Shown in pieces: positions 2,395 to 55,486 of a stretch of 64,000 nucleotides of DNA. The notes below the pieces were generated by a model. That model had not been told where the DNA came from. It was given only the letters and a program-made list of their open reading frames with translations, and ran no database searches. The translations under genes were made by a program, and so were the position numbers. This stretch comes from Streptococcus rubneri (GTDB lineage Bacteria; Bacillota; Bacilli; Lactobacillales; Streptococcaceae). Position 1 is the stretch's first letter; every line of letters begins with the position of its first letter. Location of the stretch: positions 744,001 to 808,000 of the forward strand of contig NZ_SRRP01000001.1 of the NCBI RefSeq assembly GCF_004785935.1, written 5' to 3'.

Positions 2395-2961
2395 CTAATC
2401 TTTTAAATAATAAAAAAGTTCCGACGTTTGTAAATGTTTTGAGTAAATTGAAATTACTTTTTGACCTTTTGGAAATACTGTCTTTCTCTTCAAATCTAAT
2501 AAAGATTGAGGAACAATTTTCTTTGATGTCTCTTTCAATGTTAATGCTAGTATCTGTTTTCTTGTACGTAGAGCATAGTCAAACTCCAAATACAAATAAC
2601 GTCCTGAACCAGTTAGATGAACATGTTTTCCCAATAATTCCTCAATGGATCCTAAAACTTGTAACTTTTGCATCGTGGTTCCATCTTTTTTTATTTTCAA
2701 CTCATCAATTATGATATGTCTATTTAAACAATCGTCAAAGAAACTGCCTGCACCTTTTCGGTAATCAACACCACATAGGTGCATGAAATTAGTAGGTGAA
2801 AAATGAAGTTCAACACTTTCTATTTCCGTTTCATAATACATGATTTTGCCAACGAAGTGCTCTTTAAAAAAAGAAGCCGCAATATGTAACTGATTAAAAA
2901 AATGCTGAAGTTTTATTTTTTCGGTGTAATTTGGATTACAATAATCTCTAGAATTTGCCAT
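2395..2961 (-). CDS. PBECR4-domain (phage/ICE nuclease-like) protein
   Basis: A 188-residue protein. The central part (FMHLCGVDYRKGA, FFDDCLN) resembles PBECR4, one of the Phage-Barnase-EndoU-ColicinE5/D-RelE nuclease-like domains predicted by comparative genomics. I chose the ATG at 2961 because a GTGAGGA ribosome site lies just upstream and a strong terminator hairpin (2973-3005) lies in front. A longer frame up to 3090 would read through the terminator and the 54-base repeats, and is probably not translated. The gene is its own unit between two terminators in the ICE. Toxin, anti-host or DNA-processing roles are possible; none is shown. The family call comes from recognising these motifs only. 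Confidence 0.65.
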   Translation of the reverse strand: MANSRDYCNPNYTEKIKLQHFFNQLHIAASFFKEHFVGKIMYYETEIESVELHFSPTNFMHLCGVDYRKGAGSFFDDCLNRHIIIDELKIKKDGTTMQKLQVLGSIEELLGKHVHLTGSGRYLYLEFDYALRTRKQILALTLKETSKKIVPQSLLDLKRKTVFPKGQKVISIYSKHLQTSELFYYLKD

Positions 2962-2972
2962 TTTTTCCTCAC

Positions 2973-3005
2973 AAAAAAGGTGGTTTACAGAATCTGTAAG
3001 CCACC
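2973..3005 (-). terminator. Strong terminator after the ICE transfer operon
   Basis: Twelve-base arms (GGTGGCTTACAG and CTGTAAACCACC, one G-T pair) with a 3-base loop are followed by TTTTTT on the minus strand. It ends the transfer operon after the wall hydrolase gene and lies immediately upstream of the PBECR4 ribosome site. Confidence 0.85.
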
Positions 3006-3020
3006 TAGTCAGTCGGTTTA

Positions 3021-3124
3021 TTCTGGTGTCTGCCACCGCTTGGCCCTTACGTCCAAGATTGCTATCGGATTTCGTTCTGGTGTCCGCCACCGCTTGGCCC
3101 TTATGTCCAAGATTACTATCAGAT
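3021..3124. repeat. Two tandem 54-base direct repeats between wall hydrolase and PBECR4 genes
   Basis: Two copies (3021-3070 and 3075-3124) differ at only about three positions and repeat with a period of 54 bases. The period is a multiple of three, so both strands stay open, but no ribosome site precedes either reading. I therefore treat it as non-coding. It lies in the 3' untranslated region of the transfer operon, just before the terminator. Confidence 0.85.
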
Positions 3125-3198: not shown

Positions 3199-6012
3199 CT
3201 ATTTCGTAGTATAGGCAAAACTAATAGCGCTATCTGCTTGCGAGATTTTTCTAAAGGTATAGTTAGGATTGCCACCATAGTTGGTTTCAGACACAAGGAA
3301 AGAACCATCATCATAGACCTTCTCTACAAAAGCCACATGACCGTAGATGGCTGGTGTGCCATGTGTACCTCCCACAAAAGAAACAATAGCACCTGCTCTT
3401 GGTGTGGAACCCGTTTCTCCACCAAGACTTGACGCTGTCGCAACCCAGTCCTGACCATTTCCCATGGTATTAATGATTGAAATCTTCTCTCCATTACTTC
3501 CTTTTAATTTTAAACCTAATTGATTCATACGAGCCGCAACACCCCATGTACATTGTCCATAGGCATAGGCCATACCATCTCCACCACCAGGAACAGAATT
3601 CTCATACAAGTCTCCACGGACACCTTCAAGGGATTGCGGGTCACTCTTTGCATGTCCTCCATTTGTTTGGCTAAAGCCTTTTTCAATTTGGTAATACCAT
3701 TCCGTTGCTCTGGTTTGTCTTTCCAGTAGTTTGTCACCAGAATTTCCCTCCCAATAGGTAAGGAAGAGTTGGGCTAGATTGGCTGCACTGCCCGTATTTC
3801 CAAAGAAATCCTTTAACCAACTTTGATAGTAAGGACTATCCCCGTGAAGCATAAAATCAAGTTGGAGGTCTAAATCATACCACTTCTTATTTTTGATATG
3901 TGCATAATTCAATAAAGCTGTATGACGTGTTGAACCATCTGCGGTATCTGTCCATTGCCCTAAACCTAGACCTCTATGAAGAATATTAGGATAAGCACCA
4001 CTATAAATGGCTGGACCTCCAATCGCTAACCAGCTTTCATCATCCCATGAGGAATCGGTAGCGCCAACAGGAGGAGATAAATAATCTCCTTCAGCTCGTT
4101 TAGGATTAATAGAAGACTCTACCGACCAATTTCCTAAAATTGCCGCAATGGCTTGGGGACTTGCCCCTTGAGATTTCAAAAACTCATAAATATGTTTTGC
4201 TCGTTCAAACTCATCTCCACCAAACTGACCAATGGCTGGTAAGATAGTGGTCTGAAGTTGAATGACTTTTGGAAAATAAAATTGCGGATTGACATACACC
4301 AATTTTTCTTTCTTGTTTTTATACTTTTGATAGGAAACTTTCAAACCTGTATCGTCTGGTGTTTCACCAATAATATCACCCGTTAGGACTCTTGTCCCCT
4401 CAATCGCACGGCCATTATGAATAGAATACAAGGTCAATCGACTCTCATTCTCTCCTTTTCCGTTAGTTAGAATAACATCATCTCCGTCTAGAGATACAAC
4501 ACCATCCATTGGTGCGACAATTGTTTGGTGAGCCTTCGCTTCTAGTAGAATATACTCCTGAAGAGTAGGTTTTCCGTCTAAATCATAGTATCCATAACGA
4601 TAAGTCATGGTTAGACTATCTTCGTTGCTTTTCCCCTCAAATGGATTGTCCAATTCCTGCATGGAAGCATAGACACCCTCTTCTTTTAGTTCCTTTATTT
4701 CCTCTTGATCGTCTTTCGATAGTTTATACTTAGGAGTTTCATAGAGGTCTTGCATGGATTTCAAATCATCCCCATCGTTTAAATCATGCCACAAAGTAGA
4801 CAGATAATCCTTGTAAGTTTCTGAACTAAATAAGTGAACTGGTTTGTGTAACTCATAGTCATGGAATTTAAAGTTCATATACCCCATCACATCATCAACT
4901 TTTGTGTAATAAGTAATTCCTTTGTCATTTGTGCGAGTATGTTCTGCATCTTCCCAAGTTAGGTGGGTATAAGCTTTTGTTAATTCAAATTCATCTTGTT
5001 GAATCAAACTGGCAGATGAAAATCCTAAAAAGAAGCTCATTATAAGTAAAAGAAGAAAGACTATTCCTCCAACTATCCAGGTTACAGGATTTCCAGCCGC
5101 AAATGTAAAGAAGGAAAAGGCTGCTTTTAGTTTTTGATAGATATTTCGGACACTTGTAAGACCTTGTTTCTTTAATTTTCGAAACCGATTTTTAAAGGAA
5201 CTTGGATTATCTTTCGCTAGTTTCCATCCTTTTCCATCCTTAAAATGATGGTATCGCTCTTTTGTGTTGGTCAGCCTTTTCTTGGTAAAACGACCTGTTG
5301 CTTGTCCTGTTTTGACACTAGCTTTTCCAAGGTTATAAGAAATCCGACTGTAGCGTTTCCCTTTTCTAATGGTATCTTTTAGAGTGCGATAAGCTTCTAA
5401 ATCTTCATTTTCTGAAGCTAACTCTCCACCTTCACGTCCAAGGACATAAAGAAAAGTTTTGGCTTTCCTACTGACTTTTTTGGACTTATAGGCTTGTTTA
5501 GTAGATTTTAGATTCTCTTTTGCGGCCTTGACTTCTTTCTTAGCTTTTAATTCTTCTAAACTCTTCCCTTGAAAGGAAAAATTAGATTTATGTTTCGATT
5601 CCTGACTGTAAAGAAATTTTTGATTGGTTTTTCTTTCTTTACGACTCTCTTTTCTTTCTTCTTTTGCTTCTACCTTGGCTTCTCTAAATTGCTTCTTGGC
5701 TATTTTCAATCGTTTCCTAGCATGAGGCAACCGTCTGTCTCTTAATTCTTTCCGATTCAAAAGAGATGGAGGACTATTTTGAAGAATATGATTGTAGTCT
5801 TCATTTGCTTGTCTTACTCTCTCCTTTGAAGCTTCTCTCATCTCCTCTAGCTTTTCTTTTATCTCTTTTTTCCATGCTTTTTCATCTAGTCCAGCGGAAT
5901 CATTTTTCTGTTTCCTCACCTCCTTCTTTCCTTGTTTCAAGAATTTCTTCTCATCTTTTAGAATTCTTCTAAATGCCTTTCGGGCACGTATGATTTCTCT
6001 TTTATCCTTCAT
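3199..6012 (-). CDS. Conjugation cell-wall hydrolase: M23-like, lysozyme-like and CHAP domains
   Basis: This 937-residue protein is the VirB1-like wall-opening component of the transfer machine. Residues 1-300 are very Lys/Glu-rich and probably a cytoplasmic coiled region; one membrane helix spans about 309-336. Outside follow a degenerate M23 (LytM)-like beta domain at about 497-565, with the usual APMDGVV and VLTGDIIG strands but no HxH motif; a phage-tail-lysozyme-like domain at about 598-780 with probable catalytic Glu632 (NWSVESSINP); and a C-terminal CHAP amidase/endopeptidase domain at about 808-937 with Cys821 (GQCTWG) and His892 (GHVAFV). It is the last gene of the transfer operon, 11 bases after virB4. 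Confidence 0.93.
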   Translation of the reverse strand: MKDKREIIRARKAFRRILKDEKKFLKQGKKEVRKQKNDSAGLDEKAWKKEIKEKLEEMREASKERVRQANEDYNHILQNSPPSLLNRKELRDRRLPHARKRLKIAKKQFREAKVEAKEERKESRKERKTNQKFLYSQESKHKSNFSFQGKSLEELKAKKEVKAAKENLKSTKQAYKSKKVSRKAKTFLYVLGREGGELASENEDLEAYRTLKDTIRKGKRYSRISYNLGKASVKTGQATGRFTKKRLTNTKERYHHFKDGKGWKLAKDNPSSFKNRFRKLKKQGLTSVRNIYQKLKAAFSFFTFAAGNPVTWIVGGIVFLLLLIMSFFLGFSSASLIQQDEFELTKAYTHLTWEDAEHTRTNDKGITYYTKVDDVMGYMNFKFHDYELHKPVHLFSSETYKDYLSTLWHDLNDGDDLKSMQDLYETPKYKLSKDDQEEIKELKEEGVYASMQELDNPFEGKSNEDSLTMTYRYGYYDLDGKPTLQEYILLEAKAHQTIVAPMDGVVSLDGDDVILTNGKGENESRLTLYSIHNGRAIEGTRVLTGDIIGETPDDTGLKVSYQKYKNKKEKLVYVNPQFYFPKVIQLQTTILPAIGQFGGDEFERAKHIYEFLKSQGASPQAIAAILGNWSVESSINPKRAEGDYLSPPVGATDSSWDDESWLAIGGPAIYSGAYPNILHRGLGLGQWTDTADGSTRHTALLNYAHIKNKKWYDLDLQLDFMLHGDSPYYQSWLKDFFGNTGSAANLAQLFLTYWEGNSGDKLLERQTRATEWYYQIEKGFSQTNGGHAKSDPQSLEGVRGDLYENSVPGGGDGMAYAYGQCTWGVAARMNQLGLKLKGSNGEKISIINTMGNGQDWVATASSLGGETGSTPRAGAIVSFVGGTHGTPAIYGHVAFVEKVYDDGSFLVSETNYGGNPNYTFRKISQADSAISFAYTTK

Positions 6013-6023
6013 TTACCTTCCCC

Positions 6024-8381
6024 TTAATTAGAAGCCATTTTATCAGGATCTGTACTCATGATATCAAACAATTGAGTACCTTGAGGAATCTTATTTTTAA
6101 AGGGAACAACAACTGAACCAGCTTTTATCAGTCCTGCCCCTTTTTCTGGATTGGCAAGGTATTTTTCAAGTTCTTTTGACAAGCCTAAGAGTTGAACCAG
6201 TTCTTCTCTATCATTTTTTGCTTGCTTGAGGAGAATCATAAATTCACTATTTGCAATAATCCGTCTACCATTTGGATCTAACAATAAGGTTTCGACGTTT
6301 TGAGTTATTCCAGTCGGACTAGCTCCATATTTTCTGACACGACTCCACAATTTAAAGAAGAAATCACTGGCATATTTATCTAATAAGAGAAGCTGCATTT
6401 CATCAAAATAAATCCAGGTCTTCTTCCCTAATTTTTGGTTCCGAACGACACGATTCCATATCTGATCAAAAACAACCATAAGGGCGATTTGTTTCAGCTC
6501 ATCTCCTAACTTCTTAACGTTATAAATCAAGAAATTAGATCCTGTCTGAATATTTGTCTTATGAGAAAAAATATCAAGAGAACCTTCGACATACAGTTCC
6601 ATATCAAGTGCCAAATTCTGCGCTTCTTCTTCTGGTTGTTGACTCAATACAAAGACCCATTCTTCCAAAGAAGGCTCTTTAAATGACTGATAGGTGAGTC
6701 TCGTAACTCGGTCGATAATCGATTTTTCTCTTCCATCCATTTTTCTATCCAATAACTTGCCGATAAAGGATAAAAGAAATTCTGATTTTACCTTTACAGG
6801 ATCTTCATCCATATTTTCCTCAGACAAGTCAAGGACATTGAGATAGGTTTGGGAGTCAGGCGCAATATCAATCATTTCTCCCCCAAAAGTCCGTCCAATG
6901 ACACTGTACTCTGCTTCTGGATCCACGATGATAATTTCAGTATTTTCACCAGATTCCTTGATTTTGGTCGTGATAATTTCATGCTTGGTTGCCATCCCTT
7001 TCCCAGCTCCAGATGTTCCTAAAATCAGACCAGACGGTGTATTTAATAGGCTGCGATCAATGGTAATAATATTACTTGATATTTGATTGATACCGTAATA
7101 TTTCCCACTACGGTCTTGTAAATCTACTGAAGTCCAAGGTGAGTTCACTGCTATATTGGACGTTAATAAACTCCGTGATACTCCCTCTAAAAAATCACAA
7201 CCAAATGGTAGCAAACTATTAAAGGCTGCTTCTTGCATATATGGAAGTTTATCAATCATTAGGTCATTTGAGCCGGCCACTTGTTGGATAGTGTCTAGGG
7301 CTTGTTTGAGTTCTTCTTCATCCTGACCAAAGACCCCAATCAAGAAGACCGTTTGAAATAGTTTATCTCCTGTCTCGGTCATGGTTTTTAAGAGTTCCTC
7401 AGCTTCATCGATATTGCTTTCTAATACATGACCTACTTTTTCCAAATAGATACCTGTACGAGCTAGTTTTTGTTGTTCCCCAATCTTTTGGGATTCCATT
7501 AAGGTTTTCTTTGTTCGTAGTTTCTTCATGGCATCTGCCTTGGTCGAACTTTGAGCATGAAGGCTTACAATCAATTCCAGATCTCCTTGCATGAGGTCTC
7601 GGATAAACTGATCCCCTAATTCCATACCGTAGTCTCTCACATAGACAATCTGTAATAAGCGGTCATTGATTTGTAGGTAATTCTTGTTTTTAAAATCCAA
7701 TAGATTAGGTGCTATGAAGTGACGAGTTGTCTGGCCAGATCTCGTTAAATCACGATAAGAAAAAGGAAGATGGTGTTCTCCTCTAAGCATATCTGCCAAC
7801 AAGTTCACCCGTTCTTCTCCAGTCAAGGATCCAAATCGAGCATCAATTTCTGAGAAACCACTCTTGAAATATTCGCCTATTTGAGACAAGGAACGATAAG
7901 CTTGTTTGGGATTAGAATCCTTTCTACCAAAACTAATCAGTTTCACAGCCGAAAAGTTATTTTCACCACTATCTAAATTTTGATTCATCATCCGATTCAA
8001 TTCTTTACGATAGCTATCGTACCCATCTTCTTTTTCCTCATACAAAACACTGTGTCTGAATTTTTCTAAATTCAATCTTTTATTAAAAATGGTCAATTGG
8101 AAGTTGGTTTGGTCATCTAAAGAGTTAATCAAATCAGAATACTTCTCAATGATTGCTCCCTTATCTTCTAAACCAACAGTCTGGTAATTGACATCACCAA
8201 GTAAATAGCTTTGTGAGAAATAATCTTCTTTTACCTGCATCAGACCATTTTGATACAAGGCTTGATAGGAAAGAGTATTAGCCGTTGATGGTAACACTTC
8301 CTCTTTTTTATCTTTAACTTCTTCCTTTTTATTAGTCGTTGAAGTTTTTTGTTTCTTTAATGTATTTGATTTTCTTTTCAT
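6024..8381 (-). CDS. virB4: VirB4-like conjugation ATPase
   Basis: The ATPase that powers the type IV secretion channel. Counted from a TTG codon at 8387, Walker A is GTSGAGKG at residues 457-464 and Walker B is IYFDEMQ at about 659-665. The N-terminal third lacks membrane helices, as in the soluble TrsE/VirB4 group. I prefer the ATG at 8381 (785 aa) over the TTG because AAAGGA lies seven bases upstream. The start lies about 50 bases inside the end of the prgI gene, so translation is coupled. The Lys-rich first 30 residues are poorly conserved in this family. Confidence 0.95.
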   Translation of the reverse strand: MKRKSNTLKKQKTSTTNKKEEVKDKKEEVLPSTANTLSYQALYQNGLMQVKEDYFSQSYLLGDVNYQTVGLEDKGAIIEKYSDLINSLDDQTNFQLTIFNKRLNLEKFRHSVLYEEKEDGYDSYRKELNRMMNQNLDSGENNFSAVKLISFGRKDSNPKQAYRSLSQIGEYFKSGFSEIDARFGSLTGEERVNLLADMLRGEHHLPFSYRDLTRSGQTTRHFIAPNLLDFKNKNYLQINDRLLQIVYVRDYGMELGDQFIRDLMQGDLELIVSLHAQSSTKADAMKKLRTKKTLMESQKIGEQQKLARTGIYLEKVGHVLESNIDEAEELLKTMTETGDKLFQTVFLIGVFGQDEEELKQALDTIQQVAGSNDLMIDKLPYMQEAAFNSLLPFGCDFLEGVSRSLLTSNIAVNSPWTSVDLQDRSGKYYGINQISSNIITIDRSLLNTPSGLILGTSGAGKGMATKHEIITTKIKESGENTEIIIVDPEAEYSVIGRTFGGEMIDIAPDSQTYLNVLDLSEENMDEDPVKVKSEFLLSFIGKLLDRKMDGREKSIIDRVTRLTYQSFKEPSLEEWVFVLSQQPEEEAQNLALDMELYVEGSLDIFSHKTNIQTGSNFLIYNVKKLGDELKQIALMVVFDQIWNRVVRNQKLGKKTWIYFDEMQLLLLDKYASDFFFKLWSRVRKYGASPTGITQNVETLLLDPNGRRIIANSEFMILLKQAKNDREELVQLLGLSKELEKYLANPEKGAGLIKAGSVVVPFKNKIPQGTQLFDIMSTDPDKMASN

Positions 8382-8691
8382 GTTCAAGTCCTTTCTTTCC
8401 TGAAATTGTGCGTAGGGGTATCGTTAGTTCAAAATGAAGACGGTATTTCAAATAATGTTCAAAATATAAATCATTGGGTTTATAGACTCCAAAAAGCAAG
8501 AGGGGGATGGTAAAAGCAAACACAAAACCGTAAACAAACCAATCTCCAAATTGCCAGAAAAAGAGATTCAAGCCCAAAACAATAATTGTGACAATAAAGG
8601 CTGGTAAAACAAAGATGATTTGTCTTGTGGTGAAACCTAACCAAGCCCTGTGTTGGTATTTTGAGATGTCTTTAAAAACACGTGTATTCAT
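8332..8691 (-). CDS. PrgI-family membrane protein of the transfer machine
   Basis: A 119-residue protein with two adjacent membrane helices (about residues 25-45 and 48-70) followed by a basic cytoplasmic tail containing YKPNDLYFEHYLKYR. This is the PrgI/VirB3-like architecture. In Gram-positive transfer systems it sits directly before VirB4, as here, and the two genes overlap by about 50 bases. It probably forms part of the inner-membrane platform holding VirB4. Confidence 0.88.
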   Translation of the reverse strand: MNTRVFKDISKYQHRAWLGFTTRQIIFVLPAFIVTIIVLGLNLFFWQFGDWFVYGFVFAFTIPLLLFGVYKPNDLYFEHYLKYRLHFELTIPLRTISGKKGLEHEKKIKYIKETKNFND

Positions 8692-9878: not shown

Positions 9879-11759
9879 TTATTTTAAACTAGATTCAAAA
9901 GTTAAATCACGAATTCTAAGGCCTTCAAGATGATTTTCTTGTCTTTGATTCAAAGGATTGATCTGATAGTTCCACCACCGTTCATCGGTTTCTTGATTGG
10001 CTAGGTACTTCCAGTTTGGATGCTTAGTGGAATTGTATTTTTTGCTTTTAAAGACAGGCATATTGGCAATTCGAACCAAGCATTCATGCCGTTTCATATT
10101 TCCGACTTCATCAGGTGTCATTAAATCACGAGCAATCTTTTGATGAGAAAGGGATCCTGAACCTGTCTGGCCAAAGGAACGACTAGTATTTCGAACATCA
10201 ATGGTTTGTTTACCGAGTAACCCACTCATAAATTTAAAGGTGTCTTCATCATTACCACCTAAGTAGACTAAGCTATCACAGTTCCCCAAAATGGTTTTCC
10301 AAGCTTCTTTTTCTTTATAGAGCCCTTGAAGTTGGGCAATATTTTGTAGAATAGGAACGAGACTCATGTTTCGAGAACGGACTGTTGAGGTTTGTTCAGC
10401 AAAATCTGGGATTTCTCCGATATTTGCGAACTCATCTAAGTAAACTCTCACATGAAGAGGCAATTGACCCTTAAAATCAATATCTGCTTGTCTTGTTAGA
10501 GTTTGAAATACGGTTGAAAAAAAGAGGGCTGAAAGAAAGCGAAAGGTACTATCGTTATCTGGGATAACTAAGTAAACCATTGATTTTTCCTGGCCCCATG
10601 TCTTCATATCAAGGGTATCTCTTTTGGTCAAATCCATGACACTTTGAATATTGAAGAGGGCAAATTTAGCAGTGGTTACAGCTATCACAGAATCCAGAGT
10701 CTTATCCTTATAATTTTGGAAATCTGCCCAATTTCGCATGGTAAAATTTTCAGTTCCATACTTTTTAGCATAATTTTCAAATAGAATTTCTAAGACACTT
10801 TTTTCTTGGTTTTCACCCTTGGATAGGTGTTTAATGAGTTTTGAGATTTCAGCAAAACTTGGATAACGCCCTCGTTTTTTTCGCTCTTCCACTTCTTTTT
10901 TTTGACGTTTCAACAAGTTTTGGTATTCCTTTTGACTTAAACGACTTTCTTCTATGAGCTGTTCTCTTGTTTTGGGTGGATTATAGAAATCGACCAAGTA
11001 GGAGGCTAAAGCTCGTACCAAAGTCATAGAAGCTTCATCCCAAAATGGATCACTACGGGAGCCAGAGCCTTTAGTGTTATTGAAATAAACCGTCAGCATG
11101 CGATTCAAATCGTTTTCTGTCTCTATATAGCGAAAAGGATTAAAGCCATCTGAGTTCTTCATATTGACTAAATCTAACACCTTTACTTGGTAGCCATGTT
11201 CTAAAAAGAGTTTGCCTGTTTTCTCGGCCAAGTGATCTTTAGGATCCACTACAATATTAGAAGTATTCATCTGAATCAGATTGGGTTTCACAAAGCGAAA
11301 TGTCTTCCCACTTCCTGAACCTCCGATCACCGCAATATTCTTATTTCTATCATATTGGGGTGGTTTTTTATCTAATAATGTCAAACGAACATCTTGTGCT
11401 AAGATCGTATCATGTGAAAATTTCTTACCGTAAAAGAGCTTCTTTTCTTTTAGAGTTCCAAAACGGGCGCTCCCGTATTCTACCCCTTCTCGGTATTGTT
11501 TTTTGCCAGTCTCTAGATAGAGATAAACCAGCAACATCATCACAAAGCCTAGTAGAAAAAAAGCACTGGATTTTCCAGTAAAGGAAACATTCCATGGCGA
11601 CTGAAGAACTTCATCTTGACCTTCCATTAGAAGATGAGTCCATTTATCTAAGCTATTTCCAGTATAGGAATCATACAAAAGCGTCAAACGATGAAAAAGA
11701 TAACCTAGTAAGATACCTAACAGTGAGAATAGTAGGAATTTCTTTCCACTGTACATCAT
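9879..11759 (-). CDS. virD4: VirD4/TraG-type coupling protein
   Basis: A 626-residue conjugative coupling ATPase that brings relaxase-bound DNA to the channel. Two N-terminal membrane helices (about 8-24 and 65-82) are followed by Walker A GGSGSGKT at 146-153 and Walker B LDEFANIG at 441-448, and the family's all-alpha insertion lies between. The start overlaps the stop of the preceding gene (ATGA), so the two are translationally coupled. The pairing with a PcfB-like gene is the usual pcfB-pcfC order. Confidence 0.96.
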   Translation of the reverse strand: MMYSGKKFLLFSLLGILLGYLFHRLTLLYDSYTGNSLDKWTHLLMEGQDEVLQSPWNVSFTGKSSAFFLLGFVMMLLVYLYLETGKKQYREGVEYGSARFGTLKEKKLFYGKKFSHDTILAQDVRLTLLDKKPPQYDRNKNIAVIGGSGSGKTFRFVKPNLIQMNTSNIVVDPKDHLAEKTGKLFLEHGYQVKVLDLVNMKNSDGFNPFRYIETENDLNRMLTVYFNNTKGSGSRSDPFWDEASMTLVRALASYLVDFYNPPKTREQLIEESRLSQKEYQNLLKRQKKEVEERKKRGRYPSFAEISKLIKHLSKGENQEKSVLEILFENYAKKYGTENFTMRNWADFQNYKDKTLDSVIAVTTAKFALFNIQSVMDLTKRDTLDMKTWGQEKSMVYLVIPDNDSTFRFLSALFFSTVFQTLTRQADIDFKGQLPLHVRVYLDEFANIGEIPDFAEQTSTVRSRNMSLVPILQNIAQLQGLYKEKEAWKTILGNCDSLVYLGGNDEDTFKFMSGLLGKQTIDVRNTSRSFGQTGSGSLSHQKIARDLMTPDEVGNMKRHECLVRIANMPVFKSKKYNSTKHPNWKYLANQETDERWWNYQINPLNQRQENHLEGLRIRDLTFESSLK

Positions 11760-12244
11760 CTCACCATCTCTTTCTGTTTGACGGCTCCTTCTTGTCTAAA
11801 GGTAATTTGGGATTTAGCCTCATCAATTGCATCGTCTAATGACTTATCCATGGTAAGATCAGCTAATTTCTCCGGATCATTAACCATTTTTTCTAACAGA
11901 TGATCTAAATGATTGTCTAGAATCGAACGGTCTTTCGTGTAGAAATGCAGAGAATCCCCTTGCCAAGCGATGGCTAAAGGAATCTCTTCTTTTTCTAAAA
12001 AAGCTTTAAACTTCTCTATATCAATTGGTTTGTCTAAAAAATCTTTTTTCAGATTAATTGTATCAATCGAATAGGGAGATTGTAGCAATTCTTCTAATTT
12101 CTGTGCCCCTATCTTATAGGCGGAATCCTGTGCTAAAGCCTGACGTCTAGACCATTCTAGAATCTTTAAGAGACTTCTTACAGTAAATAAAAGGCTACGC
12201 TCTGCATATTGAACTGCTATTCGTTCCTGTTGTTCAGAGGACAT
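11756..12244 (-). CDS. PcfB/DUF3801-like conjugation accessory protein
   Basis: A 162-residue soluble protein. I chose the ATG at 12244 because AAGGAGGT lies eight bases upstream, inside the last codons of the previous gene. The segment IDIEKFKAFLEKEEIPLAIA followed by a strand-rich stretch looks like the DUF3801 core. Such proteins (PcfB in pCF10) sit directly before the coupling-protein gene, as here, and help load the relaxosome on VirD4. The assignment rests on position and weak motif similarity. Confidence 0.55.
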   Translation of the reverse strand: MSSEQQERIAVQYAERSLLFTVRSLLKILEWSRRQALAQDSAYKIGAQKLEELLQSPYSIDTINLKKDFLDKPIDIEKFKAFLEKEEIPLAIAWQGDSLHFYTKDRSILDNHLDHLLEKMVNDPEKLADLTMDKSLDDAIDEAKSQITFRQEGAVKQKEMVR

Positions 12245-12533
12245 CTGACACCTCCTTCTTAACAAATAGCAGTTTTCCTTCTTTATAGCGATAAGCTATC
12301 AATTTCTGATGTTGCTTAATTGACTTGACAACCTGCAGTAGATCTCTCGAATAAGGTTCTCGAAGAGTAACTTCTACTGCCTTCCCATCAACGATACCAA
12401 CACGTTTAAATTCAATGTAGTCTTTTTTGAGATGTCCTAAGCCCATACCAAAGGGAAAGTGATGAATCAATTGGATGGTACAACCACCTTTATTTCCCAT
12501 TTGTTTCAAATCATATAAGTTTACTACCTTCAT
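12234..12533 (-). CDS. Unknown 99-aa protein, first gene of the transfer operon
   Basis: A basic, soluble 99-residue protein with no motif I recognise. It starts at the ATG at 12533 with a good AAAGGAG site and overlaps the next gene by 11 bases; its last codons contain the next gene's ribosome site, so the two are coupled. It lies immediately behind the structured leader (12534-12714), which makes it the first product whose level that leader would set. Proteins in this place are conserved among related ICEs but uncharacterised as far as I know. Confidence 0.7.
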   Translation of the reverse strand: MKVVNLYDLKQMGNKGGCTIQLIHHFPFGMGLGHLKKDYIEFKRVGIVDGKAVEVTLREPYSRDLLQVVKSIKQHQKLIAYRYKEGKLLFVKKEVSDVL

Positions 12534-12714
12534 GATTAACTCCTTTATCTAGTTTGTCGCATCGTTTGAGTCTGGTAACGATAAACTCCGTGTCTGTTAG
12601 AAAATTCTCACACACGTCTTGTGCCAGTTGCCCTTCACAGGGAAATACTCTCAGTCCCTACTTACACAGGCACGCTAATCAAGACGGAGTGGATTCAATT
12701 TTCAAAGAACAGGT
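12534..12714 (-). ncRNA. Candidate structured 5' leader RNA of the ICE transfer operon
   Basis: About 180 bases between a TATAAT box and the first transfer gene contain nested complementarity on the minus strand. CGTCTT (12686-12681) plus GTGCC (12673-12669) pairs with the contiguous GGCACAAGACG (12625-12615), an 11-base-pair helix with a 7-base bulge. ACTCCGT (12690-12684) can pair instead with ACGGAGT (12591-12585), sharing the CGT of the first helix, so the two are alternatives. A third hairpin has arms ATCGTT and AACGAT (12582-12561), close to the ribosome site. Two small GGG/CCC hairpins lie inside. No reading frame or known riboswitch family fits. A switch controlling translation or elongation is inferred. 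Confidence 0.55.
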
Positions 12715-12720
12715 AGCTTT

Positions 12721-12726
12721 ATTATA
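12721..12726 (-). promoter_or_regulatory. Probable -10 box (TATAAT) of the transfer operon
   Basis: A perfect TATAAT on the minus strand about 190 bases before the first transfer gene. No good -35 box is visible (only an A/T-rich stretch 17 bases upstream), so the promoter may need an activator. The remaining gap 12727-12866 holds only A/T-rich sequence and a weak hairpin. Confidence 0.5.
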
Positions 12727-12805
12727 GATAAGAGTAGTTGAAATTTTTATCACATTTTTTATTTTTCTGTAGAGCTAAATTCATACTAAACAAAGATTTT
12801 GAAAT

Positions 12806-12834
12806 AAAAGACTAACATAGTTACATAACGTTAG
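12806..12834 (-). terminator. Weak possible terminator after the CPBP gene
   Basis: GCTAAC and GTTAG arms separated by about 13 bases precede TCTTTTATTT on the minus strand. The stem is short, so some read-through from the replication operon into the transfer operon is possible. Confidence 0.35.
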
Positions 12835-12866
12835 CATTTCATTTCCCTAAAACAAGCTAATTTGGT

Positions 12867-13454
12867 CTAAAAAAGCAGCAAACTATAAACTAGTAGGTTC
12901 CACACCAAATGTAGCCCCATACTGCCCCATAAGTCCGATTTGTAGCGTACAAGCCCTAAAAACATCCCAAGTGAAATATATAAACACCAAGCTAGAATGG
13001 TTCCTGGATGATGTGCTAAGGCAAATAAAACACTTGTCAAAGCAACTCGAATATCTAATTTTCTGACCAAGTTCCATAAAATTTCTCGATACAGAAATTC
13101 TTCAACCATACTCGCATTGATTAAGAACAATAAAAATGAAAACCAAGGAACTTGATGTTGAAGGCCAATTAAGTTTGCTTGATTCGTAGTGCCTTGAGCA
13201 TGGATTAGACTAAAACATAGACTTATAATCAGTAGGCTAACAAATCCAATACCAAGCCATTTCATCCTAGTTTTCATATTGACTTTGACCACTTGTTTTC
13301 GTTGATCATACATCCATAAAAAAGAAATGAGCGACGTACCATAGAGAATCTGTAGTATAGTTAACTCACCGATACAAAGAAATTTCAGTAAGTATAGAGA
13401 TACAAATAGGACATTTACTTGTTGGAATATATAAACTGGAATTATTCTTTTCAT
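12867..13454 (-). CDS. CPBP-family intramembrane metalloprotease (CAAX/Abi)
   Basis: A 195-residue polytopic protein. The active-site signatures of the CPBP family are all present: EEFLYRE (EExxxR), FALAHHP (FxxxH) and HLVWN (HxxxN). Family members cleave substrates within the membrane; in lactic acid bacteria some protect against the cell's own bacteriocin and others act in peptide processing. No bacteriocin gene is nearby, so the target here is unknown. The ATG follows the stop of the HTH-like gene by two bases, with CGGAGGTAA forming both the ribosome site and that stop. It is the last gene of the ICE replication operon. Confidence 0.88.
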   Translation of the reverse strand: MKRIIPVYIFQQVNVLFVSLYLLKFLCIGELTILQILYGTSLISFLWMYDQRKQVVKVNMKTRMKWLGIGFVSLLIISLCFSLIHAQGTTNQANLIGLQHQVPWFSFLLFLINASMVEEFLYREILWNLVRKLDIRVALTSVLFALAHHPGTILAWCLYISLGMFLGLVRYKSDLWGSMGLHLVWNLLVYSLLLF

Positions 13455-13456
13455 AG

Positions 13457-13690
13457 TTACCTCCGAAATAAATCTTCATAATCTAAATCTAATACCTGCA
13501 CAATCCTTTCTACCCATGGACTTTGAGGCATTCGTTGTTCCATCTTGTAGTGCCGAATCTTTTGATACAAACGATTCAATTCACTTGGATAGTGAAACTC
13601 TCCCGCAAACATTTTTCTGGTTAACTCAATCCAGCTGATATTTCTTTCAGCCAAAATAATGGACAAGTTCTCCCAAAATCGTTCTGCCAT
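13457..13690 (-). CDS. Small helix-turn-helix-like protein
   Basis: A 77-residue basic protein. Its helical pattern (LSIILAERNISWIELTRKM, then YQKIRHYK, then VERIVQVLDLDYEDLF) resembles a Cro/C1-type DNA-binding domain, ending in the LxLxxxDLF segment often seen there. It could regulate the ICE replication operon in which it lies or the neighbouring transfer promoter. It is coupled to the CPBP gene downstream. The fold call is from pattern only. Confidence 0.55.
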   Translation of the reverse strand: MAERFWENLSIILAERNISWIELTRKMFAGEFHYPSELNRLYQKIRHYKMEQRMPQSPWVERIVQVLDLDYEDLFRR

Positions 13691-15965: not shown

Positions 15966-16745
15966 CTAACCACCTCCTTTTCTAACACGGTTATTCCAAA
16001 CAGAATACAGGCCATTAAACACAAATTCAGCAAGTACTTCCGCTCGTCTAACAAAGCGAACATTGTCAAGAGCATACTGATAGATTCTCTCAAAATCAGT
16101 CATAGCAATTTCACTGGCTGTTTCAGAAAACCCCTCTCGTCTAAATTGATCTTGTACCAATCCCCAAATATAATCTCGATCATATTTTGTGACCTTTTCT
16201 ACATTTCTTTTCAAGATAGGTTGAGTATTCCTCTCCTCCTCATCCTCAATAAATAAAGAATCAGTCTCACTATATTTAGTCTCACTAACTTCAGTCTCAC
16301 TAGGGGCTAAATGTGAGACGGGGGCCGTTTCATTTTCATCCTGCCCTAGTCTTTTTTTAACACTAGGCCTGTTTGAATTAGCTACTGGGGTAGAAGATAA
16401 TTCCCCTAAATAAATCTTATTAGCTAGTCTTCCTTTCTCACTTGAAGACTGTTGGACTTCATCAATTAAGTCATATTCTTTAAGAATTTTTTTGATGGAC
16501 AATAATTTTGACTTCGAACAACCTAACAGCTTCATCAGTTTAGAATTAGAAAATACTAAATAGACTGCTCCTTCTTCATCTATCCAACCACGACTAAGAG
16601 ATAATTCTAAACGATCTTTTAAAATAGAATAAGCCACCTTTACTTCTAGTTTCATATCCATATATTTCTCATCCTCAAAAAGAATTTTAGGTAATTTATA
16701 ATACCGTTCTGAAGTTTGGTATTGATTTGCGGTAATTCGCTTCAT
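15966..16745 (-). CDS. repA: RepA-type replication initiator of the ICE
   Basis: A 259-residue protein with the RepA_N domain: ANQYQTSERYYKLPK near the N terminus, then a winged-helix pattern through SNSKLMKLLGCSKSKLLSIK at about residues 87-106. A Ser/Thr-rich linker leads to a C-terminal helical domain with DYIWGLVQDQFRREG. RepA_N initiators drive theta replication of plasmids; in ICEs they are thought to help keep the excised circle. It overlaps the upstream 57-aa gene by ATGA. No iteron array is obvious near it. Confidence 0.9.
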   Translation of the reverse strand: MKRITANQYQTSERYYKLPKILFEDEKYMDMKLEVKVAYSILKDRLELSLSRGWIDEEGAVYLVFSNSKLMKLLGCSKSKLLSIKKILKEYDLIDEVQQSSSEKGRLANKIYLGELSSTPVANSNRPSVKKRLGQDENETAPVSHLAPSETEVSETKYSETDSLFIEDEEERNTQPILKRNVEKVTKYDRDYIWGLVQDQFRREGFSETASEIAMTDFERIYQYALDNVRFVRRAEVLAEFVFNGLYSVWNNRVRKGGG

Positions 16746-17123: not shown

Positions 17124-18541
<1,418 letters not shown>

Positions 18542-37119: not shown

Positions 37120-37632
37120 TTATTGAGTTAAATCAATTTGATTTGAAATACGTTTGATCAGAATCGCTCCTACAATAAGGGAAGCAAACTCTCCTATACC
37201 GGTGGTTAACCAATTTAAGAAGAACGGAGTACCATTAAGGATATGCAATTCTAAAGCAATCGTGAACATAGAAAGGGCAAAGAAAATAGAGAAATAGAAA
37301 TGATCCTTGCGAATCCATCCATTAAAAAGCTCTTCCTTTTCAAATCGTTTAAATAGATAAACCCCAAGTGTGACGAAGACCAAGGTAGATCCACCACCAA
37401 CAACCACATCGATTATCCCAAAACTTAAGAAGTTCGAGATCATACATCCAATTGTCAATGAAAGGATATATTTCCGATTGTAGAAAGCCATAAAATTGAG
37501 CATTTCAGAGACACGAAATTGGATCTCATTACTCCCAATAGCATTCAAGGGTGGCGTAATGGTCAAAACAACATAGAGGGCTGCGACAAGGGCAATCTGG
37601 GCCATGTCACGAACAGAATAGTTTTTCATCAT
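37120..37632 (-). CDS. queT: QueT-family queuosine-precursor transporter
   Basis: A 170-residue ECF-type substrate-binding membrane protein with about five helices, including IALVAALYVVLTITPPLNAI and the FRVSEMLNFMAFYNRKY segment typical of the QueT (COG4708) family. It imports preQ1 or another queuine precursor; the ECF energising module is encoded elsewhere. The preQ1-II riboswitch directly upstream confirms the ligand. The second ATG (37629) has better spacing from AGGAG and may be the real start. Confidence 0.93.
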   Translation of the reverse strand: MMKNYSVRDMAQIALVAALYVVLTITPPLNAIGSNEIQFRVSEMLNFMAFYNRKYILSLTIGCMISNFLSFGIIDVVVGGGSTLVFVTLGVYLFKRFEKEELFNGWIRKDHFYFSIFFALSMFTIALELHILNGTPFFLNWLTTGIGEFASLIVGAILIKRISNQIDLTQ

Positions 37633-37635
37633 TTT

Positions 37636-37695
37636 CTCCTTTAGCGGTTTTCCCGCGTGTAATATGCTTGGTGAAAGAAGCTAAGCACCAAGGGT
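37636..37695 (-). promoter_or_regulatory. preQ1-II riboswitch
   Basis: The minus strand shows the class II preQ1 pattern of Streptococcaceae: a P2 hairpin CTTGGTGC...CACCAAG, the ATATTACACGCGG segment, a small GCGG...CCGC hairpin and then AAGGAG of queT. Ligand binding would pair and hide the ribosome site, lowering transporter synthesis when preQ1 is plentiful. Confidence 0.93.
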
Positions 37696-37745
37696 TGCTC
37701 CTATCTCTCTCAGCCTTGGAAAAGAGATAAGTAAATCAACCTTTC

Positions 37746-37756
37746 AAGTATAGCAT
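37746..37756 (-). promoter_or_regulatory. Extended -10 promoter of queT
   Basis: TGCTATACT on the minus strand, about 50 bases before the riboswitch. A separate TGATAGACT on the plus strand (about 37,770-37,780) faces the other way to serve the gtrA-like gene. Confidence 0.6.
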
Positions 37757-37786
37757 AAAAAATAGAATTATGATAGACTAAATGGT

Positions 37787-55323: not shown

Positions 55324-55350
55324 GGTTTTCACCTCTTTTTTTATTTTAGA

Positions 55351-55384
55351 GAAAAACAAGAGCGGACTTGCTAACGCAAACCCG
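55351..55384 (-). promoter_or_regulatory. Attenuator in the infC leader
   Basis: GCGGGTTTGC and GCAAGTCCGC arms around GTTA, followed by TCTTGTTTTTC on the minus strand. It lies between promoter and infC; ribosomal-protein (L20) controlled termination is likely, as in other Firmicutes. Another hairpin (AGAAGT-GAGA-ACTTCT) lies earlier in the leader. Confidence 0.75.
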
Positions 55385-55486
55385 CACTACATGATTATAG
55401 TTCATTTCTGAAACTTGATCCGTAGGGGCCAGACAACGTTAGTCGCAAGGCGAGAAGTTCTCACTTCTGCTTTTCTCAACTTTTAT

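Follow-up and report, generated by a model that had tools for sequence, protein, structure and literature searches.

The boxA antitermination of rRNA operons, which works through NusB and S10 from a site early in the transcript, acts mainly on Rho. In the conAn system of the plasmid pLS20, conAn2 lies after conAn1. The conAn2 RNA is described as responsible for antitermination and ConAn1 as the processivity factor of a system placed at the start of a conjugation operon (PMC8955417). A second conjugation-related element, canT of Tn916, is presented as a cis-acting, orientation-specific, processive, and most likely RNA antiterminator whose activity in a reporter required no further Tn916 gene (PMC11658703). 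Two further structured RNAs near operon starts, EAR of the Bacillus subtilis eps operon and put of phage HK022, are thought to modify RNA polymerase in cis (PMC11658703, PMC8955417). In ICESt1 and ICESt3 of Streptococcus thermophilus, the 5'-RACE products reported for the conjugation promoter Pcr stopped at a stem-loop lying some 100 bp downstream of it (PMC3234194).

Against this background, we analyzed a 64,000-nucleotide stretch of the Streptococcus rubneri genome (assembly GCF_004785935.1, contig NZ_SRRP01000001.1, positions 744,001 to 808,000; hereafter the window, in whose forward-strand positions all features are given). An earlier note on this DNA, made from the letters alone, had proposed a structured leader RNA ahead of the transfer operon of an integrative and conjugative element (ICE), and both the structure and the setting were borne out by covariation among homologs and by the genes downstream. 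The leader is encoded on the minus strand at 12557 to 12712, with a CAAX-protease gene on one side and a series of transfer genes on the other. The first of these genes (12234 to 12533) has its start codon at 12533 and a ribosome-binding site, AAAGGAG, at 12540 to 12546, and codes for a protein of 99 amino acids (aa). It is followed, in order, by genes for a 169-aa protein, VirD4, a Maff2-like protein (an assignment below the cutoff), a 284-aa protein, PrgI, VirB4, and a lysozyme/CHAP protein. The VirD4/TraG coupling protein (9879 to 11759; Pfam PF02534), the VirB4-like ATPase that served as the query for VirB4 searches (6024 to 8387; PF19044), and the VirB1-like lysozyme/CHAP protein (3199 to 6012; PF18013 and PF05257) are all encoded in this run, and the leader lies at the start of a conjugation operon. 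The transfer genes are followed by a gene for a PBECR4-type, Barnase/EndoU/RelE-like nuclease (2395 to 3090), a homolog of which is also found after the adhesin gene of the related locus L184.

A covariance model, R1, built from eight distantly related leaders of one subtype (B) with the window excluded, matched the window leader over its full length with 51.1 bits (E value of 4.6e-11), and this score is independent; a second model, R2, gave 84.5 bits, a score that is not independent because its training included the window. R1 likewise recovered the leaders of L062 and L021, which together with the window make up subtype A, the type B leaders being those of L064 to L080 and others. Near-identical copies (82 rows and 16 variants, with some genomes counted repeatedly via several loci) hold too few changes for tests of base pairs, and these tests were informed by L062, L021/L148, and the type B leaders. 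In alignment A4, which consists of 36 model matches (35 distinct), 97.4% of the cells pair and 30 of the 33 pairs show changes on both sides; in A8, a more diverse set of 35 leaders that includes six weak matches (L173 to L178), the corresponding values are 94.7% and again 30 of 33, all of these counts leaning toward the structure for helices P2 to P5, to which the alignments were fitted, and being free of such a lean for P1. The covariation scores were 0.621 in A4 and 0.660 in A8, against at most 0.091 and 0.086, respectively, in slid controls.

The conserved fold has five helices. The 5' strand of P1 (CTC and GTCTT; 12681 to 12689) pairs with GGGAC and GAG at 12650 to 12658, with 94.6% of the cells paired in A4 and 90.3% in A8 and with both-side changes in 5 of its 8 pairs in the helix test on the two alignments. 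P3 joins GTGCC (12669 to 12673) to GGCAC (12621 to 12625), and all nine of its pairs in A4 and A8 show changes on both sides. Since P1 and P3 interleave, the core of the RNA is a pseudoknot, and P1 is absent from the models because the covariance-model tool takes no pseudoknots. Within this core lies the P2 hairpin, CCCTGTGAAGGG (12631 to 12642), and beyond it the P4 hairpin (12590 to 12615), which carries a TAA bulge on its 3' side; both were placed in the window row by eye, with the helix test made in relatives. A GGAGTTT stretch between P4 and P5 (12583 to 12589) is similar in most relatives when the alignments are inspected by eye. The terminal hairpin, P5 (12561 to 12582), has ATCGTT/AACGAT arms and a conserved loop, ACCAGACTCA; its paired cells reach 100% in A4 and 99.2% in A8, and all four of its pairs show both-side changes. 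Single-sequence folding of a 211-nucleotide stretch gave a z score of -1.08, with 30 of 200 shuffled sequences folding at least as well, so that the pairings alone would not have revealed a structured RNA; the evidence for one lies in the covariation, for which the earlier note had asked and which the conserved fold displays.

The leader is a real structured RNA belonging to a family with no match in Rfam 15. In line with the earlier view that it fits no known riboswitch class, the Rfam search of positions 12534 to 12726 gave no match at the gathering score; at E values of up to 5, there were two matches of the snoRNA type, both on the other strand and far under their gathering scores, one of them reaching 12541. 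Elsewhere in the window, Rfam recognizes a preQ1-II riboswitch (37627 to 37757) and a ribosomal protein L20 leader (55348 to 55478), both on the minus strand. A literature search at the level of titles and abstracts returned no paper on this leader; one of two papers on new bacterial RNA motifs names a Streptococcus "YjbJ motif" located before a lytic transglycosylase gene. As a structured RNA near an operon start, the leader resembles EAR and put, from which it would differ, as far as the missing Rfam match tells.

All three pairings originally drawn for the leader can be read on the minus strand where they had been placed, but the fold conserved in relatives is a different one. The hairpin with ATCGTT/AACGAT arms is P5 and is conserved with compensatory changes. 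Of the bulged helix of 11 bp, the GTGCC/GGCAC half corresponds to P3 and is likewise conserved and compensated, whereas its CGTCTTG/CAAGACG extension lacks support from covariation: 62.6% of the cells pair, a share reached by none of 500 shuffles, and the covariation score was equaled by 52 of 500. The helix supposed to compete with it, ACTCCGT/ACGGAGT, pairs at chance level (54.2% of the cells, a share that 224 of 500 shuffles matched or exceeded). The proposed alternation between exclusive helices is therefore not supported, since conservation is limited to the P3 half of one helix and is absent from the other. In type A leaders, the GTCTT strand could in principle pair alternately in P1 or in the CGTCTTG helix. 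P1 and its pseudoknot with P3, P2, P4, and the boxA-like motif had all escaped the first reading.

The boxA-like motif, CTTTGAAAATTGAAT, is an exact match at the 5' end of the leader (12693 to 12707), and its core is present in 34 of the 36 leaders of A4 and in 32 of the 35 of A8. It agrees in 13 of 14 letters with a motif in the 16S-23S spacer of the host, the common part being TTGAAAATTGAAT. In the S. rubneri genome itself, TTGAAAAYTGAATA occurs at one place, between the end of the 16S gene and the sole 23S rRNA gene found, 87 nucleotides before the latter in the assembly. A control pattern, boxA read backward, also has a single occurrence in this genome, and the argument therefore rests on the place in the rRNA spacer and not on rarity. 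Judged on this one 16S-23S spacer, the leader motif appears to be the same as that of the rRNA operon of the host. The leader shares with the rRNA operons a boxA-like sequence close to the start of the transcript and is unlike them in that the motif is followed by a compact pseudoknotted RNA in the mRNA of a mobile element. A weak R2 match, L177, lies about 100 nucleotides after a 16S 3' end, in a stretch where the motif for the start of a 23S gene was not found. Three other weak matches (L174:1501-1701, L178:1501-1683, and L175:1501-1673) begin with a boxA-like motif and continue with other sequence and are possibly further classes of boxA-started leaders.

The same motif recurs in canT. Of 118 genomes, 17 encode a Tn916-type Xis, and 10 of the loci concerned were retrieved. 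In L088, the trinucleotide 283 nucleotides past the upstream stop codon is ATA, as in the S3 mutation of the canT paper (PMC11658703), which identifies this stretch as the canT region. The region contains the boxA-like motif at 120 to 139 (L088:1147-1176), as do L083 and L085, and the motif core is identical in the canT region, the new leaders, and the rRNA spacer. R1 matches 24 to 25 nucleotides at this motif in nine of the ten Tn916-type loci, the exception being L082. The main text of the canT paper contains no occurrence of the word boxA (PMC11658703). Beyond the motif, canT is unmatched by our models, with R1 reaching 13.6 bits over 24 nucleotides and R2 at most 18.4 bits with filters off. 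The leader is thus like canT in being an RNA that would serve an ICE transfer operon in cis and in carrying the same boxA-like motif and differs from it in the rest of its sequence and structure and in its linked protein, canT being reported to be independent of other Tn916 genes.

The protein encoded immediately downstream of the leader has no match in Pfam or NCBIfam at an E value of 0.001 and no PDB sequence match up to an E value of 1; members of its family show weak Pfam matches (E values of 0.02 to 0.11) in a few cases. Compared alone with ConAn1 by BLASTP, the window protein gave no significant result, nor did a family profile (A5) against one ConAn1 sequence. In a comparison of families, however, hhalign aligned the first-gene family (A7; 19 sequences) with the ConAn1 family (A6; five relatives, one of them annotated as "Antiterminator protein ConAn1") at a probability of 88.4% and an E value of 2.8e-6 over 83 columns, corresponding to ConAn1 residues 7 to 91. 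Decoys stayed far below, with 1.7% for the reversed alignment, at most 1.3% for 30 column shuffles, at most 0.9% for 150 more, and at most 0.8% for 30 window proteins. Judging from this profile comparison, the first-gene family is homologous to the N-terminal part of ConAn1 only, since the alignment stops at residue 91 of 172 and the window protein, with its 99 aa, lacks the C-terminal half. AlphaFold predicts a small, beta-rich protein; when it was compared with solved structures for a possible SH3-like/KOW fold, the matches, to ribosomal proteins of the large subunit and to a NusG domain, were weak.

Like conAn of pLS20, the leader opens a conjugation operon and is an RNA with a ConAn1-superfamily gene as its neighbor, and candidate terminators lie inside related operons. 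L185 and L188 have the leader followed by the ConAn1-like gene and then by a SEC10/PgrA surface-exclusion gene, an arrangement close to the order ConAn1, Ses in a Bacillus atrophaeus plasmid record. There are also clear differences: the leader RNA precedes the protein gene, the linked protein has about 100 aa and no C-terminal half (against the 172 aa of ConAn1), and the leader system occurs in Lactobacillales, whereas plasmid matches to ConAn1 come from Bacillus, Listeria, and Paenalkalicoccus. Five conAn1 regions gave a best R2 score of 9.0 bits, one of them, L205, comprising the gene and the 664 nucleotides after it and nothing before it; in the pLS20 stretch searched, neither a match to the covariance models nor, with up to two mismatches allowed, a boxA-like motif was found. 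We do not class the leader as conAn proper because the RNA is unmatched, the gene order is different, and the C-terminal half of ConAn1 is absent.

A ConAn1-like gene lies directly downstream of 44 of 51 leader loci among the matches listed, these 51 being the best places of the family- and order-level searches, near-duplicates included. The seven loci without an adjacent gene are the six weak matches L173 to L178 (25.5 to 41.3 bits), none of which has a ConAn1-like gene in the locus, and L182. The last appears to belong to an S. suis-type ICE, also seen in L184, in which the leader precedes genes for an AgI/II adhesin, PBECR4, and SNF2/methylase proteins and the ConAn1-like gene is about 12.5 kb from the leader (leader in L184; gene in L063). 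Conversely, a search with the first-gene protein found 58 of 284 genomes of the genus, with 40 places at least 94% identical and 22 diverged; a similar leader was recognized, by eye and with R1, upstream in 18 of the 20 diverged loci fetched, five of these 18 having served to build R1. The remaining two, L063 and L081, have no leader upstream of the first-gene homolog.

At the DNA level, the leader sequence has matches in 26 of the 147 genomes searched within the genus. Under strict filters, the leader was detected in 53 of 196 genomes and 5 of 10 genera of the family sample, in 25 of 395 genomes and 9 of 80 genera of the order sample, and in 1 of 398 genomes of the phylum sample, namely, the window's own; the 9 of 80 genera are an upper figure because of the weak matches L173 to L178 with no ConAn1-like gene, and in three of the genera the matches exceed 100 bits. 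Among the named hosts are S. mitis, S. oralis, S. pseudopneumoniae, S. infantis, S. cristatus, S. sanguinis, S. australis, S. sinensis, S. suis, and S. cuniculi. DNA searches of plasmids and phages with the leader gave no match, and one pattern scan of viral contigs gave none; a tblastn search of plasmids with a type B protein led to six records, and in all five fetched a leader lies just upstream (41.6 to 100.8 bits). One of them is pFI430 (NC_025249.1; L213:2714-2918), the sex factor of Lactococcus cremoris MG1363, which carries the leader and the ConAn1-like gene. The pattern scan of genome contigs yielded 36 stretches, 34 of which match R1; the other two, both from Campylobacter (L139 and L142), were set aside as chance finds.

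We next consider the terminators downstream, scanned by simple scoring of hairpins with a T tract in the 20 kb after each of 20 leaders and in the window, with the qualification that related elements are not independent. A VirB4 homolog was found downstream in 20 of the 21 regions, with an opposite-strand open reading frame (ORF) in between in L199 and L201. Between leader and VirB4, hairpins of -11 kcal/mol or stronger number 30 in the sense and 10 in the antisense orientation (26 and 10 unique; binomial P = 0.011), and such terminators occur in 16 of 20 regions in sense and in 8 of 20 in antisense. The counts are 47 versus 29 at -9 kcal/mol and 13 versus 5 at -13 kcal/mol, and 27 versus 7 at -11 kcal/mol when L199 and L201, in which the opposite-strand ORF breaks the run, are omitted. 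In the window gene run itself, the interval up to VirB4 lacks sense terminators that reach -11 kcal/mol and holds two antisense ones, its candidate intrinsic terminator on the minus strand at 11564 to 11580 being weak (-10.3 kcal/mol), and the simple scan shows no excess there (8 found and 8.5 expected). L187, L188, and L199 likewise have no sense terminator of this strength before VirB4. Two chromosomal control stretches of the window hold 8 sense and 0 antisense terminators in about 28 kb, a greater sense density than that of the leader-VirB4 intervals (30 in 165 kb), as several operons end in these stretches; given the denser controls, the sense excess is weak evidence, supportive only. In the S. 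suis-type ICE, the gene run after the leader of L184 includes two strong sense terminators.

That the same RNA can precede a different operon (L184), together with the boxA-like motif and the ConAn1-like gene just downstream, points to processive antitermination and not to the ligand sensing once suggested for the leader. We propose that the leader is probably the cis-acting RNA half of a two-part, conAn-like processive antitermination system with a new RNA architecture, and that antitermination of either kind, by two parts or by RNA alone, is more likely still. While RNA polymerase moves away from the transfer promoter, the emerging transcript would present boxA and fold into the P1-P3 pseudoknot, P2, P4, and P5. 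The folded RNA would then stay with the polymerase, probably with NusB and S10 bound at boxA, and the ConAn1-like product of the first gene would probably act as the processivity factor. Polymerases modified in this way might read through the intrinsic terminators of the long transfer operon, whereas transcription that starts spuriously, and so lacks the leader, would stop. In a bolder form, in which a previously undescribed boxA-plus-pseudoknot RNA common to conjugative elements of Lactobacillales and a minimal ConAn1-like protein would make RNA polymerase resistant to terminators by hijacking the ribosomal boxA machinery, with canT, the leaders, and L174, L178, and L175 forming one class, the proposal is tentative and falls somewhat short of even chances.

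Several results weigh against the two-part interpretation, namely, the missing model matches to the pLS20 region and to the body of canT, the nonsignificant comparison of the window protein alone with ConAn1, and the lack of strong sense terminators in the window. The distance of about 12.5 kb between the L184 leader and the ConAn1-like gene also counts against it and would suit an RNA that acts alone, like canT, whose reporter activity needed nothing else from Tn916 (PMC11658703), with the ConAn1-like protein serving some other role such as regulation or assembly of the type IV secretion system. We consider this unlikely in light of the gene's adjacency to 44 of the 51 leader loci among the matches listed and its relationship to a described processivity factor. 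The same linkage of RNA and first gene could also indicate that the leader is a binding site for the protein encoded by that gene, or for another protein of the element, in autogenous translational control or control of mRNA stability, like the leaders of ribosomal protein operons, and the weak ribosomal-protein and NusG matches of the beta-rich model might fit such a role. Yet the ribosome-binding site is outside the conserved fold, and the boxA-like motif and L184 would be left unexplained, which makes this reading very improbable.

There remain two explanations to which we give still smaller odds. One is a riboswitch-like or antisense-gated attenuator, in which two exclusive helices control the first gene. 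Both helices can be drawn in the window, L062 has, by eye, a compensated counterpart of CGTCTTG/CAAGACG, and the paired share of that helix exceeds all 500 shuffles; but ACTCCGT/ACGGAGT is at chance in relatives, the CGTCTTG extension shows no covariation beyond shuffles, a scan of 11700 to 13500 found no terminator-like hairpin in the leader, and the same RNA precedes an unrelated first gene in L184. The other holds that boxA merely shields the long transcript from Rho, as boxA complexes counter Rho in rRNA operons, the structured part having a different role such as protection against RNase; against it stand the sense excess of intrinsic terminators downstream, weak as it is, and the homology to ConAn1. 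Both appear to us quite remote.

The two-part antitermination proposed here would add to the RNA antiterminators of mobile elements, so far described singly, a family whose structure is supported by covariation and comes with dozens of natural variants. It offers a candidate entry point, boxA, that canT and the rRNA operons have in common, and it brings in a ConAn1-related protein as partner. Since pFI430 of Lactococcus cremoris MG1363 carries both leader and gene, the effect of the RNA on RNA polymerase is directly testable in a harmless model. The proposal also hints that conjugative transfer in streptococci is controlled at a shared point.

Upstream of the leader, TATAAT at 12721 to 12726 on the minus strand is the probable -10 element of the transfer-operon promoter, although no good -35 element lies at a distance of 17 nucleotides and the promoter listing of the window gives no sigma-70-type site at this position. 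Farther along in the window, a RepA_N gene (15966 to 16745) and a gene for a tRNA (uracil-5-)-methyltransferase-like protein (17124 to 18494) may mark the end of the element. Inspection by eye of the sequences upstream of many type B leaders (L064 to L080) revealed a recurring TTGACC...AAGTC near the presumed -10 element, which is perhaps the site of a regulator.
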